Source of the DNA: a bacterium 336/3
GTDB lineage: Bacteria > Bacteroidota > Bacteroidia > Cytophagales > Thermonemataceae
Assembly: GCA_001281695.1 (NCBI GenBank)
Contig: LJIE01000001.1
Span: 750,107-814,106, forward strand
Direction: 5' to 3'
Length of the DNA stretch: 64,000 nucleotides
Numbering within the stretch: position 1 is the first letter of the stretch; each line of letters starts with the position of its first letter. Below the pieces are notes generated by a model that did not search any database, was not told the DNA's origin, and saw only the letters and a list, made by a program, of their open reading frames with translations. The position numbers and the translations under genes were made by a program. Shown here one piece after another: positions 30,538 to 64,000 of the stretch.

Positions 30538-30550
30538 TTTTTAGCTTAAT
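30523..30550. terminator. palindromic bidirectional terminator overlapping two stop codons
   Basis: ATTAAGCTAAAA (30523-30534) and TTTTAGCTTAAT (30539-30550) form a perfect 12-base stem with loop TAAT. The stem includes the last codons and stops of both the M23 peptidase and the SpoIIE phosphatase, which are only 3 bases apart. Confidence 0.7.
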
Positions 30551-32037
30551 CTTATTCCCAGTACTGTAATATCATCCAACTGTTTTTCATCTCCTTCAAG
30601 CATCCAATTCTCAATAGTTTGCTTGAGATAATGTTGTTGCTTTTCCATGCTTAAAGGGTGAATTTTTTGTAATAATTCCTTGAAACGTTTGCTACTAAAT
30701 TTCTTTTTTTCACTTCCTCCAAATTGGTCAGTATAACCATCTGAAGAAAGATAAATAGTTGTAGGTATTGTTAAAGAAATGGAATGTTTTTGAAAACTTT
30801 GTTCACTATCATAAGTCTTTAAACCTCCAATAATAATTCTATCACCTTTTATTTGATTAAGAATATCATTCTGCATATATAATAATGAAATACCAGCACC
30901 AGCATACTCCAATTTAGCTTCTCCTAAATGCTCTTTATAAGAATCAGGAAAATTATCAACAGTACAAATGGCTACATCCATACCATCCTGATTATTACTT
31001 TCCTCTTGACGTAAAGTATGAATAATGCCTTTTCGGAGCTGATACAATATTTTATCTGGTTCTGTAATATTCCTTGATTTAATAATATCATTTAAAATTT
31101 CATTACCTATCATACTCATCAGAGCACCAGGGATGCCATGTCCTGTACAATCAACAGCAGCGATAATAATCTTATAGTTTTTAGAGGTAAACCAATAAAA
31201 ATCTCCACTAACAATATCTCGTGGCTTATAAAGTACAAAGCTTTCTGGAAAAAAGCTTTTAATAGTTTCTATTTCAGGGAGAATAGCATGTTGTATTCTT
31301 TTCGCATAATTAATACTTGATGTGATTTCTTGATTAGTTCTTTCAATAATGAAATTCTTATTTTCTAAAATTTTATTCTGCTCATCAATATGGTCTCTCT
31401 GAGATACGATTTCCTCATTTTGTTGCTTAATTTCTTCATTCATCACAAGCAATTCTTCTTTTTGCTCTTTGAGTTCAATATTTTGCTCTTCTAACTGCTT
31501 TTTTACTTTGAGTATCGAAACTCCTCTATGAAAGGATATAAAGGCGACATAATGTGTTGCAGCAAATAAATAGATAACAGATGGAATAAATGCCCAAACA
31601 TTGTCTGCTGACATCAACATGATTTTTTGTGGCAATGGAAAAAATACCAAAATAATCAGATTTGCCAAGAGCCACAAACCCCAAGCTCTTACAAAAGCTT
31701 TAATTCCTCCAACTGAATAAGCTGTTGCTGAATTAGCCAATAAAAAAGGTAAAGCACTCATTAAATTAAAATCCAACAAGTAGCCTATCCAACCTATCCA
31801 AAATAAATCAATGCCCAATACCCAAAACTCTGCTTCTCGGTGGTCTTTGGCTTTGTTACTAAGAATAAGAGCCATATGAGGATATACAAGAAAAATACCA
31901 ATAATTACCCATGCTGTTGTAGAAATTGAATTCCAAATGTAATATTGGTGAAAAATAATACTCAGTATGGCAAGTAAATAACCTATAATCCGAACAGGAT
32001 AAATAGCTTTGTTGATGTTAGAACGTTTTTGAGACAT
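30541..32037 (-). CDS. membrane-bound PP2C/SpoIIE family serine phosphatase
   Basis: A 498-residue protein. About six N-terminal transmembrane helices (residues 14-170) are followed by a coiled coil ('EEQNIELKEQKEELLVMNEE', about 175-240) and a SpoIIE/PP2C domain (about 250-498). The domain starts 'SINYAKRIQHAILPE' and carries metal-binding aspartates in 'VSGDFYWF', 'VDCTGHGIPGA', 'DGMDVAIC' and 'SSDGYTDQFGG'. It should remove phosphate from a STAS-type or SiaC-type partner protein in response to a membrane signal. Neighbouring genes give no partner. The catalytic domain resembles that of the large phosphatase at 59904. Confidence 0.9.
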   Translation of the reverse strand: MSQKRSNINKAIYPVRIIGYLLAILSIIFHQYYIWNSISTTAWVIIGIFLVYPHMALILSNKAKDHREAEFWVLGIDLFWIGWIGYLLDFNLMSALPFLLANSATAYSVGGIKAFVRAWGLWLLANLIILVFFPLPQKIMLMSADNVWAFIPSVIYLFAATHYVAFISFHRGVSILKVKKQLEEQNIELKEQKEELLVMNEEIKQQNEEIVSQRDHIDEQNKILENKNFIIERTNQEITSSINYAKRIQHAILPEIETIKSFFPESFVLYKPRDIVSGDFYWFTSKNYKIIIAAVDCTGHGIPGALMSMIGNEILNDIIKSRNITEPDKILYQLRKGIIHTLRQEESNNQDGMDVAICTVDNFPDSYKEHLGEAKLEYAGAGISLLYMQNDILNQIKGDRIIIGGLKTYDSEQSFQKHSISLTIPTTIYLSSDGYTDQFGGSEKKKFSSKRFKELLQKIHPLSMEKQQHYLKQTIENWMLEGDEKQLDDITVLGIRLS

Positions 32038-56273: not shown

Positions 56274-56298
56274 AAAAAGGGCTTTAAGCCCTTTTTTT
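56274..56298. terminator. terminator after the T9SS gene
   Basis: AAAGGGCTT pairs directly with AAGCCCTTT, flanked by A and T runs. The hairpin lies between convergent genes and can serve both. Confidence 0.88.
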
Positions 56299-57271
56299 AT
56301 ACACTTAATAATTGATTTTCTTGACTTTGAAGAGATTGAACGCTAATTTTTAATATATCGAATGCTACTTCTGCCATCACGTTACCTTTATCGTCTAAGA
56401 TTGGATTTATTTCTACCATTTCCCAGGCACACACTCGTTCATCAGCAATAAGAAGAGCATTTAATTCTTGTGTTTCTGCTACTGTAAAACCATCTTCTAC
56501 AGGTGTTCCTGTACCAATAGAGATAGAGGAGTCCATGCTATCTACATCAAAAGAAATATACAATAAGTCGCAATAAGCAAGTTTTTCTTCTAAAATTTCA
56601 CGTACAACAGTTTGGATACCTCTATTTCTGACATCTTCTACTGTATAAATCTTTATATCTTTCTTTTCTATAAAATAATCTTCTTGAATTTCAGTATCTC
56701 TTACACCTATCAATACTAAATCTGAAATATCAAATTTTGCTCCTTTTATACCAAGATTTTTAATTTGTTCCCAATAATTATGTGTTGTTTCATCAATTTC
56801 ATTGATTTGAGCATCTAAGTTATCTTCTGCAAGTGCCATAGCCAATGGCATTCCATGCATATTACCAGATGGCGAGGTATATGGTGAATGTAAATCTGCA
56901 TGAGCATCTATCCAAATAACACCTAATTTTTTATAAGGAAAAGCTTTCTTGATACCTGCAATAGTACCTGCTGCTGTGGAGTGGTCACCAGCTAATATAA
57001 CTGGGAAATTTTCTTGAACGAGGGTTTGTGAAACTTCTTCACAAACATTTTGCTGGACTTGTAATAGATGATTGATGCGTTTGGCGTGTAAATAGGGTGT
57101 TTCTTCAAATAAACTTTCATTAAAAACTTTTACTTCCTTGCTAGGAAAAAGACTAAAAAAAGAATCATTTTTATTAAATCCTACAATTTTGAGAGCATCT
57201 ACTCCTAAACTAGCTCCTCGTGTGCCAGCTCCAATTTCCGATTTTACTTCTAAAAATCTTATACATCTCAT
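56297..57271 (-). CDS. arginase/agmatinase family ureohydrolase
   Basis: 324 residues with the dinuclear Mn motifs 'GDHSTAAG' (about 99), 'DAHADLHSPYTSPSGNMHGM' (about 124-143) and 'SFDVDSMDSS' (about 245). The N-terminus 'EVKSEIGAGTRGASLG' and the overall length fit Bacteroidota arginases. Ureohydrolases release urea from arginine (to ornithine) or agmatine (to putrescine). The divergent neighbour is a group-III decarboxylase of the arginine/ornithine type, so either a linear or a branched polyamine route is possible. I favour arginase on the overall pattern; agmatinase is not excluded. Confidence 0.88.
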   Translation of the reverse strand: MRCIRFLEVKSEIGAGTRGASLGVDALKIVGFNKNDSFFSLFPSKEVKVFNESLFEETPYLHAKRINHLLQVQQNVCEEVSQTLVQENFPVILAGDHSTAAGTIAGIKKAFPYKKLGVIWIDAHADLHSPYTSPSGNMHGMPLAMALAEDNLDAQINEIDETTHNYWEQIKNLGIKGAKFDISDLVLIGVRDTEIQEDYFIEKKDIKIYTVEDVRNRGIQTVVREILEEKLAYCDLLYISFDVDSMDSSISIGTGTPVEDGFTVAETQELNALLIADERVCAWEMVEINPILDDKGNVMAEVAFDILKISVQSLQSQENQLLSV

Positions 57272-57389
57272 AAAAATATATTTTGGTGGAACATAGTTTG
57301 ATAAGGAATAATCAAGATTTTATTTTTATTTTTGTACCTTACCAAGAAAAATTTGTTTTTTAGCAAGATGTCATTTTTTTTCCTCATCG

Positions 57390-57458
57390 CAAAATTTTAT
57401 AGCAATTTATTGAAAAAAAGTAAAAAAAATCCCTAATTTCGCTTCAAAATTTTATAGC
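57390..57458 (+). promoter_or_regulatory. promoter region of the decarboxylase with a 14-base direct repeat
   Basis: CAAAATTTTATAGC occurs twice, at 57390-57403 and 57445-57458, 55 bases apart. Between them lies a promoter-like pair: TTG (57410-57412), 21 bases, then TAATTTCG (57434-57441), one mismatch from TAnnTTTG. The repeats bracket the promoter and could be a regulator-binding site. Confidence 0.45.
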
Positions 57459-57472
57459 CTTCCTTATTGCCA

Positions 57473-58861
57473 ATGAAAAGCTACATCGATTTAGTTGAAC
57501 AAACCTACGAATTCCCCACACCAGAGTTCAAAGTAAAACACAATGAACTGTTATTCAATGGAGTACCTCTGATGGATATTATTAAAGAATATGGTACACC
57601 TTTGAAACTGACATATTTGCCAAAAATTACTGAACATATTCAGTATTGTAAAGAACTTTTTGCAAATGCAATTAAAAAGTTTAAATATGACGGGTCATAC
57701 ACCTATTGTTATTGTACAAAATCATCACATTTTAGTTTTGTTTTGGAGGAAGCTCTTAAAAATGAAATCCATATAGAAACATCTTCTGCTTTTGATTTGC
57801 CTATTATCAAATCTTTGTATAAAAAGAAGAAGTTTACTAAAAAACAATATGTGATTTGCAATGGGTATAAAAGACCTTTATACACACAATACATCAATGA
57901 AATGCTCAATGATGGCTTTAAAATAGTTCCAATTCTTGATAATTTAGAAGAAATAGATGCGTATCAAGTTACCAAAGCTGATGAAGTAGAAGTAGGGATT
58001 CGTATTGCTGCTGACGAAGAGCCTAATTTTGAATTTTATACATCACGTTTAGGTGTGAGATACAGCGATATAATTCCATTATATAAAGAAAAAATCAGAG
58101 ATAATCCTAAGTTTAAACTTAAAATGTTACATTTCTTCATTAATACAGGTATCAAAGATACTGCTTATTATTGGAGTGAATTGAGTCGTTTCATGTATAA
58201 ATATTGCGAACTCAAGAAAATGTGTCCAGAATTGGATACGGTTGATATTGGAGGAGGTTTCCCTATTCAACTTTCTTTGAGTTTTGAATATAACTATAAG
58301 TATATGGTGGAGCAGATTATTGAGAATATTCAATGGATTTGCCAAAAAAATAATGTTCCTGTACCCAATTTATTTACTGAATTTGGTTCGTTTACAGTTG
58401 GTGAAAGTGGTGCTGCTATTTATTCTATTGTTGGACGAAAATTGCAGAACGATAAAGAGCTATGGTATATGATTGATGGCTCTTTTATTACACAATTGCC
58501 TGATGCTTGGGGAATTAATCAGAAGTTTATTTTATTGCCTATTAATAATTGGGATAAACCTTATCAAAAAATTCATTTAGGGGGGCTTACTTGCGATAGT
58601 TTAGATTATTATAGTACGGAAGCTAATATGTCAGAAGTATTCTTACCTATAGCAGATGAAGATGATGTACAGTATTTAGGATTTTTTCATACTGGAGCAT
58701 ATCAAGAGTCTGTTGGCGGATACGGAGGAGTTCAACACTGTTTAGTACCTGCTCCCAAACATATTATTATTAATAGAGATAAAAAAGGAAATATTAGTAC
58801 ACAATTATTTGCCCCTGAGCAAGATAGCGATTCTATGTTGAAACTCTTAGGGTACAAATAA
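57473..58861 (+). CDS. PLP-dependent arginine/ornithine decarboxylase-type enzyme (fold type III)
   Basis: 462 residues from the ATG at 57473; a TTG two codons earlier is also open. The barrel starts with the PLP lysine in 'YCYCTKSSHFSF' (about 80). 'MLHFFINTG' follows, then the glycine-rich PLP-phosphate loop 'DIGGGFPI' (about 260) and the C-terminal active-site 'GGLTCDSLDYYS' with Cys-Asp (about 372). The 'GEYGAYQES'-like end region reads 'TGAYQESVGG'. This matches Bacteroidota proteins annotated as arginine decarboxylase. The product would be agmatine or a related diamine. Divergent from the ureohydrolase gene, with terminator downstream. Confidence 0.85.
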   Translation: MKSYIDLVEQTYEFPTPEFKVKHNELLFNGVPLMDIIKEYGTPLKLTYLPKITEHIQYCKELFANAIKKFKYDGSYTYCYCTKSSHFSFVLEEALKNEIHIETSSAFDLPIIKSLYKKKKFTKKQYVICNGYKRPLYTQYINEMLNDGFKIVPILDNLEEIDAYQVTKADEVEVGIRIAADEEPNFEFYTSRLGVRYSDIIPLYKEKIRDNPKFKLKMLHFFINTGIKDTAYYWSELSRFMYKYCELKKMCPELDTVDIGGGFPIQLSLSFEYNYKYMVEQIIENIQWICQKNNVPVPNLFTEFGSFTVGESGAAIYSIVGRKLQNDKELWYMIDGSFITQLPDAWGINQKFILLPINNWDKPYQKIHLGGLTCDSLDYYSTEANMSEVFLPIADEDDVQYLGFFHTGAYQESVGGYGGVQHCLVPAPKHIIINRDKKGNISTQLFAPEQDSDSMLKLLGYK

Positions 58862-59027: not shown

Positions 59028-59861
59028 ATGAAATCTGGAACTTATAAAGTATTTGCAATAATTAGTATGGCTCTTTTTATACTTATATCAATAAAAGTTG
59101 GTTACGATTTCTATAATTTGGATGAGATTATTGTGAAAGAAATAGAAATAGTAGAGGTTAGTAAGAAAAAGAATTTATCAAGTATCATATTAAGATTAGC
59201 TGTTTTTGCTGGAATTGCGTTTTTTTCTGGTTTTCTAACAATCTTACTAACAAATATAGCTAATTCGAGCTATAGATATGGAGATAACATAAATACACAT
59301 GATCCATCTCTTGATCCAGATAAAGATTTAGTGAATGAAATTAATAATTTAAAGAATACAAAGAGTTCTTTAGGATTATCAGCTCTTGGTGAAGTCAATA
59401 AAATATTAAAGTCTTATACTGGAGAAGAAAGATTAGAGAAAATTTTAGGCTTGGTTTGTAAAAATCTTGAGGCATGTCAAGGTGCTATTTATGCTCTTAA
59501 AAAAGAATCTAAAAAAAGTTTGTATGTATTTCAAATAGGTTATGCTTATTATATTCCAGAAAGTCAAATCATGCAATATGAGCTGGGTGAAGGGTTGGTA
59601 GGACAGGTAGCCAAAGATGGTAACTCAATGCTTTTAAAGTCTGTACCAGAAGGGTATATGCAAGTAATATCTGGCTTGGGACAAGCTTCACCAAAAAGTT
59701 TGTTGATTGTACCTATTCGTTCTCAAAATGAAAGTGAAGTAATTGGTATTTTTGAAATAGCTTCTTTTGTGAATTTTACAGAATTACAAAAGAACTATTT
59801 ACAAGAAGTTTCTACATTATTATCAGAGCAAATAGCTGATAGTTTGGTTGCTACAGTGTAA
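59028..59861 (+). CDS. membrane-anchored GAF domain protein
   Basis: 277 residues. Two transmembrane helices (about 7-25 and 53-78) flank a short loop; the C-terminal part (about 115-275) is a GAF domain, beginning 'LSALGEVNKIL' and including 'ACQGAIYALKKE', 'GLVGQVAKDG', 'SGLGQASPKSLLIVPI' and 'EVIGIFEIASF'. It closely parallels the GAF domain inside the next gene (59904), which suggests duplication. The gap of 42 bases indicates an operon. It probably senses a small ligand or redox/light signal and passes it to the phosphatase next door, an inference from context. Confidence 0.85.
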   Translation: MKSGTYKVFAIISMALFILISIKVGYDFYNLDEIIVKEIEIVEVSKKKNLSSIILRLAVFAGIAFFSGFLTILLTNIANSSYRYGDNINTHDPSLDPDKDLVNEINNLKNTKSSLGLSALGEVNKILKSYTGEERLEKILGLVCKNLEACQGAIYALKKESKKSLYVFQIGYAYYIPESQIMQYELGEGLVGQVAKDGNSMLLKSVPEGYMQVISGLGQASPKSLLIVPIRSQNESEVIGIFEIASFVNFTELQKNYLQEVSTLLSEQIADSLVATV

Positions 59862-59903
59862 ACTAATTTAGGTATTCATTTTAAAGCCCTGTTGGGAATA
59901 GTT

Positions 59904-62900
59904 ATGTTTGGCTTGTTTTCAAAACTTAAAATTGGTGCTAAAATTTCTGCTATTTTATTAGTAGTGGTATTGGTGTCTGTACTTTCTGAAAGCTTCTTTG
60001 CTTATCAGCAAAGTAAGAATACTATTGAAGCAGATAAATTACAATCTCTCAATCGTATTGCTGATACAGAAGTAAAAAAGCTCCAAACCTTTATGAACGA
60101 TATTAATGCAGCTGTTCAAATAGGACAAGAGTTAAAAGCTATTAAAGACTTCTTAAAAGGTAATGCAAGTGGAGGTGATACAAAAAAAGATGAAGTTGGA
60201 ACTTTGAATTTTGAAGAGGAAATAAAATTAGATACTCCTGATATAAAAACAGATACAAAACCTGATGATACAGCTAATAAGCAAATAAAGCCAATAGAAA
60301 AAATACAAGGTCAGCAAATAACTTTTGATGCAGAGCTTGATGATGTTGTTTCAAGAATCCAATATGTATATAAAATTAATAATGTTTATATTGTAGATAA
60401 AGATAAAAAAGTAAAATACATTTCTAGAGAGACACCTGAACAAACTAGAGGTGAAGAATTTAAACTTCCTGCTGTTGACCCTTCAGTTTTGGTAAGAGGT
60501 AGAGATACTATTTACTTCAGTAAGGTAACTCTACAACAATTGGGAAAAGAGAAAAGAATAGTGTTCTTGGTTGCAGCACCCATTCGGGATGAATTAGAAG
60601 GGACAGGAAGAGAGGTATTGGGGCAACTTATCTATGAAATAGATATGGCAAGGGTAGAGCAACTTATTGCTGATAAAGCTGGATTGGGTAGTACAGGACA
60701 AATTTGGTTATTACAAGATCAAGAAAAAAGATTTGTTTATTTGAATTCTTTTATCAATAAAAAACAAAAAATATCACCACTAGATAATGCTGGCAATAAG
60801 GATGACCCTAGTACTTCCAAAGTTGTTTTAAGATCTCTCAAAAAAGAACAAAAACACAGTGAAGCAATTGATGAAAATGACTACTTGGCTGTTTCTAGAT
60901 TTGTTCCTGGTGTTGAATGGGGAGTAGTTGTGAAGAATGACAAAGCTGAGATTTATGCTCCTGCTGAAGCACTACTAAACCGATTTTTGATAGCAGGTCT
61001 TTTTGTAATTATAGCCTCTTTAATCATTGGTATATTATTTTCGCAACTTCTCACAAGACCTTTGAGTAGTCTTCAAAGAACTATTGATTCATTAGGTAGA
61101 GGCGAACTACCTCCTGTTTTAACTTCTGAATCACAAGATGAGATTGGCGAAATGACTAACCGAATTAACAGTTTGGTGGAAAACTTAAATAAAACTGCAA
61201 ACTTTGCCCAAAATATTGGTAATCAGCGTTTTGATACAGAATTCACACCTGTTAGTAAAAATGACATTCTTGGAAACGCTTTAATTAACGCTCGTGACAG
61301 TTTGGTGGCTTCTGCTGAAGCAAACAGTAAAGAAAACTGGGTTGTAAGCCGACTGGCTGAAGTAGGTGATATCTTACGTTCAACCAACCAGTTAGATGAA
61401 CTTGCAGACCAAGTATTAGCTTACGTAGTAAAAGAGTCTGGAGCAATTCAAGGAGCTTTTTATGTAATGAAAAAAGACGAAAAATCAGGGACAGACTTTC
61501 TTGAAATGATAGCCAGTTATGCCTACAACAAGAAAAAATACCTCAATGCAAAATTCAAATTTTATAAAAATAAATATGCAGAAGGTTTAGTAGGACAAGC
61601 TGCTATTGAGCAAGATATTATTCAAAGAACTGAAATACCTGATGAATATGCAACTATATCTTCTGGATTATTAGGAGATAAAAAACCTAAATGTTTGCTT
61701 ATTACTCCACTAATCACTAACGACACAGAAGTATTTGGTGTAATTGAACTTGCAGCATTTGAAGAATTTGGAGATAGAGAAGTGGCTTTTATCAAGCGTA
61801 TTAGTGAAATTACAGCCCGAACTATTTTCAACATTAACGTAAACGAAAACACTCGTAAACTTTTGGAAGAACAACAGAAACTTTCTCAAGAATTACAAGA
61901 AAACGAAGGTATTTTACGTAAAAGTGCTGAAGAATTAGAAAATAAAAACTTAGAAATTCAAAAAACCAATGAAGAGCTAGAAAGACAGTACCTTAATGTA
62001 CAAAATGAGCAACGTAAAATTCAAGCTCTTTTGGAAAATGCATCTGAGGTAATCACAATTTACAACTCTGATGGTAAAATTCGATTCATCTCTCCATCAG
62101 TAACCAAAATCTTAGGTTATGAACCTGAAGAACTTATTGGAAAAACAGATATGGAGCATATTGAAGGGCAAGGAAAAGAAATATTCCAAAAAATGTTTGA
62201 AGACTTGTTGCAATTCCCTGATGAAAAAACTACACCAATTCAGTTCTCTTATAAAACTCAAGATGGAGATAGTATTTGGCTAGAAGCAACAGGTACAAAC
62301 CTTTTAGATGACCCAGCAATTGAAGGTATTGTAATTAACACACGAGACATTACAGAAAGACGTAGAGCTGAACGAGAAGAAAGGATGCGTGGTCAGATGC
62401 AAGCGTTATCTGAAAATTCTGCCGACTTAATTCTTCGTATGAATCGTGAAGGTTTAGTTTATTATATTAACCCAACTATTGAAAGTTTAACAGGACATAA
62501 TCCTCATAAATTCTTACAAAAGAGCATTGATGCTGAACTTGTGCCACAAAGTGTATTGAATAAGTGGTTTAAGCTGGTAGAAAAGTCGTTCCGATTAGGC
62601 GAAAAATCCAGTGACGTGGTTGAATTCGAAACTATTGAAGGTAAGAAAATTATGAGTGTGAATGCTATCCCTGAAAGAAATGAAGAGGGTGGTACAGAAA
62701 CTTTCCTGTTAGTATCTCACGATATTACTGATAGAGAAGCCGATAAAGAGAGAATTGCTGTAGCTAATAAGAAAATTACAGACTCCATTAACTATGCTAA
62801 ACGTATTCAGGGTTCTATCTTGCCAGACAGTACATGGATGCAAGCTGTATTCCCAGATTCATTTGTAATGTTTAAACCCAAAGATATTGTAAGTGGAGAT

Positions 62901-63569
62901 TTTCCTTGGATGTTACGAACCGAAAAACATGTTTATATTGCTGTAGTGGACTGTACAGGACATGGAGTACCAGGTGCATTGATTTCTTTGATAGGATATT
63001 TCTTATTAAGTAATATATTTACTACAGAACAAAATCAAAACTTAACACCAGGTGAAGTTCTTGATTTGTTAGATGAAGCTGTTGTAAGAACTCTAAGACA
63101 AACAGAAGAAGATAGTGTAAGTAAAGATGGTATGGATGTTTCGTTATGTAAAATAGATATTACGAATCAAATTTTAGAATATTCTGGAGCTCACAGACCT
63201 TTATACTACATGGATATTCACAAACCTGAAATAGAAGAAGTTTTAGATGAGATAAAAGGCGATAAAATGCCAGTAGGTGGTGGACAATATAAAAATAGAG
63301 GAGCATTTGCAACACATAAACGTGAATACAAACAAGGTGACATGCTTTTGATGTTTTCTGACGGATTGCCAGATCAATTTGGTGGTCCTGATAACAGAAA
63401 ATTCTCTCCAAAACGTATTCGTGATATCCTTAAAAATAATGTTAATACTCCTATGATGGGTGTGAATGATGCTATTGAAAATGAACTCAGAGTTTGGATG
63501 AAATTTGATGGTAGAGATTACGTAATTAAACAAACTGATGATATATTAGTAATTGGTATTAGATTTTAA
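59904..63569 (+). CDS. multi-domain sensor serine phosphatase (HAMP-GAF-PAS-PAS-SpoIIE), SiaA-like
   Basis: About 1221 residues from the ATG at 59904; a TTG four codons earlier is also open. Transmembrane helix 1 (about 10-30) and helix 2 (about 360-380) enclose a large extracytoplasmic Cache-like sensor. HAMP follows (about 382-435), then a GAF (about 482-645, similar to the upstream gene), a coiled coil (to about 700), PAS 1 (about 706-825), PAS 2 (about 832-950) and a C-terminal PP2C/SpoIIE domain (about 962-1221). The PP2C part has 'SINYAKRIQGSILPD', 'VSGDFPW', 'VDCTGHGVPGA', 'DGMDVSLC' and 'FSDGLPDQFGG'. It should dephosphorylate a partner protein under sensor control; the SiaB-type kinase follows. 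Confidence 0.9.
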   Translation: MFGLFSKLKIGAKISAILLVVVLVSVLSESFFAYQQSKNTIEADKLQSLNRIADTEVKKLQTFMNDINAAVQIGQELKAIKDFLKGNASGGDTKKDEVGTLNFEEEIKLDTPDIKTDTKPDDTANKQIKPIEKIQGQQITFDAELDDVVSRIQYVYKINNVYIVDKDKKVKYISRETPEQTRGEEFKLPAVDPSVLVRGRDTIYFSKVTLQQLGKEKRIVFLVAAPIRDELEGTGREVLGQLIYEIDMARVEQLIADKAGLGSTGQIWLLQDQEKRFVYLNSFINKKQKISPLDNAGNKDDPSTSKVVLRSLKKEQKHSEAIDENDYLAVSRFVPGVEWGVVVKNDKAEIYAPAEALLNRFLIAGLFVIIASLIIGILFSQLLTRPLSSLQRTIDSLGRGELPPVLTSESQDEIGEMTNRINSLVENLNKTANFAQNIGNQRFDTEFTPVSKNDILGNALINARDSLVASAEANSKENWVVSRLAEVGDILRSTNQLDELADQVLAYVVKESGAIQGAFYVMKKDEKSGTDFLEMIASYAYNKKKYLNAKFKFYKNKYAEGLVGQAAIEQDIIQRTEIPDEYATISSGLLGDKKPKCLLITPLITNDTEVFGVIELAAFEEFGDREVAFIKRISEITARTIFNINVNENTRKLLEEQQKLSQELQENEGILRKSAEELENKNLEIQKTNEELERQYLNVQNEQRKIQALLENASEVITIYNSDGKIRFISPSVTKILGYEPEELIGKTDMEHIEGQGKEIFQKMFEDLLQFPDEKTTPIQFSYKTQDGDSIWLEATGTNLLDDPAIEGIVINTRDITERRRAEREERMRGQMQALSENSADLILRMNREGLVYYINPTIESLTGHNPHKFLQKSIDAELVPQSVLNKWFKLVEKSFRLGEKSSDVVEFETIEGKKIMSVNAIPERNEEGGTETFLLVSHDITDREADKERIAVANKKITDSINYAKRIQGSILPDSTWMQAVFPDSFVMFKPKDIVSGDFPWMLRTEKHVYIAVVDCTGHGVPGALISLIGYFLLSNIFTTEQNQNLTPGEVLDLLDEAVVRTLRQTEEDSVSKDGMDVSLCKIDITNQILEYSGAHRPLYYMDIHKPEIEEVLDEIKGDKMPVGGGQYKNRGAFATHKREYKQGDMLLMFSDGLPDQFGGPDNRKFSPKRIRDILKNNVNTPMMGVNDAIENELRVWMKFDGRDYVIKQTDDILVIGIRF

Positions 63570-63632
63570 GCAATATTTTAAGCAAAATTTTTTGTTTTGT
63601 GAAAAATAAGTATCTTACAGCAAAAAAATTAT

Positions 63633-63640
63633 TAAATTTG
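63633..63640 (+). promoter_or_regulatory. -7 element upstream of the SiaB-like gene
   Basis: TAAATTTG matches TAnnTTTG exactly, 31 bases upstream of the SiaB start. No TTTG at the right -33 distance is evident. A separate promoter in addition to read-through from the phosphatase gene is possible. Confidence 0.4.
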
Positions 63641-63670
63641 AGTCGTCATTCCTAAAATGTCAAGAATATT

Positions 63671-64000
63671 ATGAAATATGTTTATGATCTGCACAAAACA
63701 ATGATTGCCAATAACCTGATTATTGTTTACGAAGGTGAATTTACTCAGGAAATTACAAAATCAGTTTTGGCAATGGCAGAACGAAATATGGACGCTATTG
63801 GGGAGTCTGCCAATGTAAAAAGGAAAGTCTTTAACGTAATGGTTGAATGTCTCCAAAACATTGTAAAACACGCAGAAGACCTTAACGAAAAAGATGATGA
63901 TGGATTGAAGAATAATGCCATTTTTATGCTGGGCAAGCAAATCAATGAGTATATTGTTACCTCTGGAAATCCCGTACGCAACAACACTGTTGCTAAAATT
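63671..64000 (+). CDS. SiaB family protein kinase, N-terminal part (window edge)
   Basis: The first 110 codons of a plus-strand gene that runs off the right edge. The start is the ATG at 63671. The sequence begins 'KYVYDLHKTMIANNLIIVYEGEF' and has 'NVMVECLQNIVKHAEDLN', resembling the N box of a GHKL-type ATPase (Glu/Asn Mg-ATP ligands), as in SiaB/DUF6272 kinases. In Pseudomonas SiaB phosphorylates SiaC and SiaA, a PP2C phosphatase, removes the phosphate. The gene follows a SiaA-like phosphatase by 101 bases. The C-terminus and any SiaC (DUF1987) gene would lie beyond the window. Confidence 0.85.
   Translation, partial: MKYVYDLHKTMIANNLIIVYEGEFTQEITKSVLAMAERNMDAIGESANVKRKVFNVMVECLQNIVKHAEDLNEKDDDGLKNNAIFMLGKQINEYIVTSGNPVRNNTVAKI

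Follow-up and report, generated by a model that had tools for sequence, protein, structure and literature searches.

An ABC exporter as the candidate output of a Sia-type partner switch in Cytophagales

The last three genes of the 64,000 nucleotide stretch of DNA from bacterium 336/3 analysed here (the window; G000:C1:750107-814106, G000 being this genome) encode a small GAF protein, a large sensor phosphatase and the start of a SiaB-type kinase, and they raise the question of what a switch built from such parts might control. In Pseudomonas aeruginosa, T68 of SiaC is the target of SiaB, and its phosphorylation blocks the binding of SiaC to the diguanylate cyclase SiaD (PMC8457831). The original prediction, made from the window alone, recognised a Sia-type module at 59028-64000, proposed looking beyond position 64000 for a SiaC (DUF1987) gene and placed the outputs of the module downstream. 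Examination of the downstream region (C1:805000-824999, which is L008 in the coordinates below) reveals that the operon continues with siaC and the gene for an ABC exporter, and on balance we favour the exporter as the output of the switch.

Three open reading frames (ORFs) on one strand, separated by gaps of 42 and 101 bases, occupy this end of the window as predicted, and Pfam and NCBIfam agree with their description as a two-helix GAF protein, a phosphatase of about 1221 residues with HAMP, GAF, two PAS and PP2C domains, and the start of a kinase (Table 1). The frame opening at 63671 might have turned out to encode an unrelated ATPase once complete; the full 183 residue product is a SiaB-family kinase, matching DUF6272 above cut-off and the NCBIfam model SiaB_fam_kinase (NF038262) at 182.3 bits against a cut-off of 85, with N-box and G-box motifs that are intact and conserved in about 30 orthologues. 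The SiaC gene follows it directly, and profile matches together with adjacency uphold the assignment of phosphatase, SiaB and SiaC to a Sia-type module. SiaC aligns with the solved P. aeruginosa protein (6kko, E 1e-10) across the NT-SS motif, its Thr68 falls on P. aeruginosa T68, and this threonine is invariant in an alignment of 32 operon copies. The likeness to P. aeruginosa SiaABCD extends to a membrane HAMP-PP2C phosphatase encoded beside the kinase (two transmembrane segments, with HAMP and SpoIIE above cut-off), to the kinase and SiaC themselves, to the gene order and to the Thr68 site. However, the phosphatase here has an added GAF and two PAS domains and scores 176 bits against the cut-off of 700 for the SiaA equivalog model (NCBIfam NF038263), its best stretch being the PP2C end; a small GAF membrane protein is added, as are CheR and CheB in relatives; and the gene after siaC encodes an ABC exporter, not the diguanylate cyclase SiaD.

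Past the window, the gene order is the end of SiaB, SiaC, the exporter, a lipoprotein, a small secreted protein and then a second lipoprotein and secreted protein pair, this tandem duplication being found in the window's genus and in some relatives. A diguanylate cyclase was considered as the operon output and rejected, since none is encoded in the operon: Pfam gives no GGDEF match among the exporter, lipoprotein and secreted protein genes that follow siaC. The outputs were thus rightly placed past the window; their nature had not been identified, and the candidate is an ABC exporter with its lipoprotein and secreted protein.

The exporter N-terminus was matched in 91, and DUF6272 in 93, of 148 Cytophagales genomes searched. 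Forty exporter-centred neighbourhoods, picked by exporter matches and not by kinase position, were joined by the window's own and three named loci, and removal of two duplicates left 42 loci. On the same strand as the exporter these encode SiaB at 33 loci, SiaC at 34, the phosphatase at 30, the lipoprotein at 34 and the small secreted protein at 30, with CheR near the exporter at 23 and CheB at 21; the counts are raw tallies that ignore relatedness, and for relatives the genes are ORFs from six-frame translation that were labelled by hidden Markov models, in genomes some of which are fragmentary. CheR and CheB stand at the front of the operon at about 20 of the loci, and the fullest operons have the order CheR, CheB, GAF protein, phosphatase, SiaB, SiaC, exporter, lipoprotein, secreted protein. 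In the operons of most relatives the phosphatase gene is preceded by the small GAF gene, and the phosphatase layout is seen again at about 30 loci across the order, which bears out the proposal of a Cytophagales version with extra cytoplasmic sensing. Kinase genes can also be multiplied: at one locus (L137, in G182) three successive SiaB-type kinase genes stand ahead of one SiaC, and two genomes of a single family (G047 and G102) have 21 SiaB-type kinases each.

Beyond the order, the exporter N-terminus was found in 154 of 295 genomes of the class Bacteroidia, and 40 further neighbourhoods were examined. SiaC is codirectional with the adjoining exporter at eight of these loci. Ten others have a convergent layout, in which lipoprotein, secreted protein and exporter are followed by SiaC and mostly SiaB on the opposite strand. 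In the SiaC tree, the same-direction SiaCs of Cytophagales and other orders group together in a clade (96/90) that excludes both the convergent SiaCs and the paralogues of this genome. It follows from tree and layouts that two SiaC subfamilies adjoin one exporter family in two arrangements. In addition, two genomes encode, between siaC and the exporter gene, a fusion protein (L139 7868-8992, 374 residues; L143 8272-9375, 367 residues) in which a copy of the exporter N-terminal module precedes a SiaC domain with an NTTSS motif.

The exporter itself is of the ABCG type by its domain order, ABC_tran then ABC2_membrane, and its best NCBIfam model, below the cut-off of that model, is the pigment precursor permease TIGR00955. 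Ahead of the ABC domains it carries an extra 290 residues, for which an AlphaFold model (predicted local distance difference test score, pLDDT, 82) suggests a helical part followed by a beta-rich domain. The helical part may be TerB-like, on the evidence of a Pfam match below threshold (E 0.019) in a relative, and each of the top PDB matches of the beta-rich domain is an FHA domain (Foldseek probability 1.00, but a weak E of 0.01). Pfam gives no FHA match in the exporter, and the SRxH motif for binding phosphothreonine is not conserved in 32 aligned exporter N-termini. The FHA-like domain was accordingly rejected as a phosphothreonine reader, the fold being suggested and the binding residues not seen; because SRxH is not conserved, it may be a protein-docking module. 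An example of an FHA-domain ABC transporter is Rv1747, an ABCG-like half transporter whose ATPase is preceded by an FHA-like domain, with threonine phosphorylation nearby. Here, by contrast, TerB-like helices come before the FHA-like domain, which has no evident SRxH, and the kinase is of the GHKL and not the Hanks type. The lipoprotein and secreted partners lead us to guess that the cargo is an envelope component or a surface protein; an attempt to read the function of the lipoprotein from its fold was abandoned, its all-helical model (pLDDT 78.5) having no meaningful PDB match. Two exporter paralogues listed for this genome lie more than 100 kb from any SiaC.

MlaB offers the closest precedent: in E. 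coli this STAS protein binds the ABC ATPase MlaF, with a phosphomimetic substitution at Thr52 weakening the binding; phosphoregulation at Thr52 was proposed, not shown, and the control of STAS-type ABC regulators by phosphorylation was left open (PMC7367683). SiaC is described as structurally related to STAS domains (PMC8457831), and it is through this structure, not through sequence comparison, that it can be likened to MlaB. Both systems would couple a small STAS-type protein to an ABC transporter, with a conserved threonine at the contact. However, MlaFEDB is a phospholipid transporter for which no dedicated kinase or phosphatase is known, whereas the exporter here is ABCG-like and has an N-terminal regulatory module of its own. 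By this analogy, the best reading is that the Sia switch gates the exporter as MlaB acts on MlaF. The phosphatase would read an extracytoplasmic signal through its N-terminal sensor. Cytoplasmic signals would reach it by way of its GAF domain and both PAS domains, perhaps aided by the small membrane protein with a GAF domain. The STAS-like SiaC would receive a phosphate at Thr68 from the SiaB-family kinase and lose it again to the phosphatase. Unphosphorylated SiaC would then bind either the cytoplasmic N-terminal module of the exporter (TerB-like helices and FHA-like domain) or its ATPase, altering exporter activity in an on/off fashion, and the exporter would act together with the lipoprotein and small secreted protein encoded beside its gene.

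Several observations weigh against the exporter as the output. Adjacency of SiaC and exporter is lost at about 8 of the 42 order loci, and 14 of 20 loci of the second class sample lack a SiaC next to the exporter trio, so an adjoining switch is not indispensable to the exporter. The fusion is rare, a full-length match being found among the 295 class genomes only in the query's own genome, and the SiaC domains in it have diverged; the FHA-like match has a weak E-value (0.01) and comes without an evident SRxH motif. Cross-talk is possible in a genome with seven SiaC, five SiaB-type and about 22 SpoIIE-type phosphatase genes. (Another SiaB-SiaC pair of this genome, at L013 8820-10754, lies head-on to a gene for a PorP/SprF-like outer-membrane protein.) An ordinary Sia switch might thus have its target elsewhere, be it a diguanylate cyclase, a sigma/anti-sigma pair or some other regulator, the exporter being merely co-transcribed in the same regulon. 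This would be in keeping with the action of P. aeruginosa SiaC on SiaD (PMC8457831), with the occurrence of the exporter trio apart from SiaC in several genomes and with the excess of phosphatases over kinases and SiaCs. We nevertheless regard it as unlikely, if still a serious contender, given that SiaC and exporter are linked in two gene arrangements with two SiaC subfamilies and by the fusion of SiaC with the module, and that the operon encodes no diguanylate cyclase. A different possibility is that SiaC serves to assemble or stabilise the exporter and is not a signal-driven switch, with phosphorylation that is slow or constitutive. MlaF stability does need MlaB, and MlaB phosphorylation in cells has not been shown (PMC7367683), but a dedicated kinase and a sensor phosphatase with intact, conserved catalytic motifs are encoded alongside SiaC here, and this explanation appears very improbable.

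A further question is posed by CheR and CheB, members of the operon in most relatives. In this genome the two genes lie together at C1:933.8-935.3 kb (L122 8816-10753), about 120 kb from the operon and hence outside the window, and the pair is displaced in the window's genus, to which G025 and G070 also belong. A gene of 102 residues precedes CheR/CheB here and in the relative G056, marking the operon breakpoint, and the interval upstream of the operon in which relatives have CheR/CheB holds an arginase-family gene (-) and a pyridoxal phosphate-dependent decarboxylase gene (+) in the window (56297-58861). Both products match their Pfam families (CheR and CheB_methylest) above cut-off, as in chemotaxis, but CheB has no receiver domain, CheW is absent from the genome, and the relatives' copies are clustered with a PP2C phosphatase gene, not with chemoreceptors. 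The pair might still serve a canonical chemotaxis array, its place in the relatives' operons being incidental, and the separation of some 120 kb in this genus does indicate that co-transcription is not required. However, the search for CheW came up empty in this genome and in G025, G070 and G097 (44 of the 148 order genomes have it), as it did in 11 of 20 sampled genomes with CheR/CheB inside the operon. Members of the window's family in which CheW does occur have another, different CheR near it, whereas the sole CheR found here is the L122 copy. A role in classical chemotaxis is therefore unlikely, and we would give the canonical array little credence. We infer that the likeliest target is the phosphatase or the GAF protein, either of which CheR/CheB would probably tune by reversible methylation. 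A segment in the coiled coil of the phosphatase of many relatives, EEMxATQEEL, resembles methylation segments and is degenerate in this genome; the pattern EE[ML]x[AS]TQxEL occurs in 12 of 21 phosphatases with CheR/CheB in the operon and in 1 of 8 without, but the motif was chosen after looking, which makes this segment a candidate methylation site and a lead only. The full circuit, in which CheR/CheB adapts the phosphatase, phosphatase and SiaB set the state of SiaC, and SiaC gates the exporter by docking on its TerB/FHA-like module, is a tentative proposal and, taken whole, a rather doubtful one.

The phosphatase has its hydrophobic segments near residues 4-22 and 352-370, which implies a long extracytoplasmic part, of about 330 residues, to which Pfam assigns no named domain. 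Behind the second segment follow HAMP, GAF, coiled coil, the two PAS domains (above the Pfam cut-off, like HAMP and SpoIIE) and PP2C/SpoIIE, whose four acidic motifs are kept in 29 orthologues. An alternative start, TTG at 59892, would give 1225 residues. In the GAF protein, which matches GAF_2/GAF above the Pfam cut-off, the hydrophobic helices lie near residues 3-21 and 49-67; perhaps it controls the phosphatase, as its conserved adjacency suggests. Elsewhere in the window, a second SpoIIE-type phosphatase (30541-32037, -) has a hydrophobic N-terminus, a long coiled coil and a PP2C domain, and no SiaB or SiaC match adjoins it.

The two GAF domains had been taken as duplicates of one another on the strength of shared landmarks. 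These landmarks are common to this GAF family. The GAF of the first gene matches 13 places in the genome including itself, three other GAFs outscoring that of the phosphatase, and the GAF tree resolves into three clades: the first-gene GAFs, taken from 14 genomes (100/100), the phosphatase GAFs (96/90) and the remaining GAFs of the genome, with the phosphatase GAF grouping with the last of these under midpoint rooting. Both of the first two clades are order-wide. Ranking and tree lead us to reject a local duplication; because the tree is unrooted, a very old one may remain compatible with it.

Table 1. Features of the operon in the window (positions of the window) and beyond it (positions of L008).
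Feature	Position	Strand	Extent	Evidence and remarks
Small membrane-anchored GAF protein	59028..59861	+	277 aa	Two N-terminal hydrophobic helices; GAF ~59424-59831; Pfam GAF_2 40.4 bits
Sensor PP2C phosphatase, SiaA-like	59904..63569	+	1221 aa	Start ATG
HAMP of phosphatase	61038..61190	+	residues 379-429	Pfam HAMP 36.8 bits
GAF of phosphatase	61392..61823	+	residues 497-640	Pfam GAF 20.5 bits, just below cut-off of 22.4; strongly conserved in 29 orthologues
Coiled coil between GAF and PAS of phosphatase	61824..62012	+		
First PAS of phosphatase	62013..62378	+	residues 704-825	TIGR00229 and Pfam PAS_9
Second PAS of phosphatase	62409..62747	+	~residues 836-948	Second PAS stretch in profile matches
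PP2C/SpoIIE domain of phosphatase	62922..63563	+		Pfam SpoIIE 61.9 bits; acidic motifs SGDF, VDCTGHG, FSDG, QTDD
SiaB-family GHKL kinase (DUF6272)	63671..64000	+	first 110 of 183 codons	Gene end C1:814328, 222 bases beyond window
SiaC	L008 9368-9733		121 aa	Starts 38 bases after SiaB, just outside window; PF09345 133 bits, cut-off 24.5
ABC exporter	L008 9791-13000		1069 aa	ABC_tran and ABC2_membrane above Pfam cut-off
Lipoprotein-like protein, then secreted protein	L008 13074-15817 (tandem copies)		297 aa; 157 aa	Downstream of exporter gene; order Lipo, S157, Lipo, S157

No prior description of this operon was found in the literature searched, subscription journals lying largely outside the search. 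SiaC is widespread, and the sole target characterised in the literature that we found is a diguanylate cyclase. An operon that, throughout an order, sets an ABC exporter beside a STAS-like protein with its kinase and phosphatase makes control by phosphorylation testable in one place. The orphan CheR/CheB pair likewise raises the question of what is methylated where there is no chemotaxis. If true, the full circuit would be a case of chemotaxis-style adaptation driving transport instead of motility.

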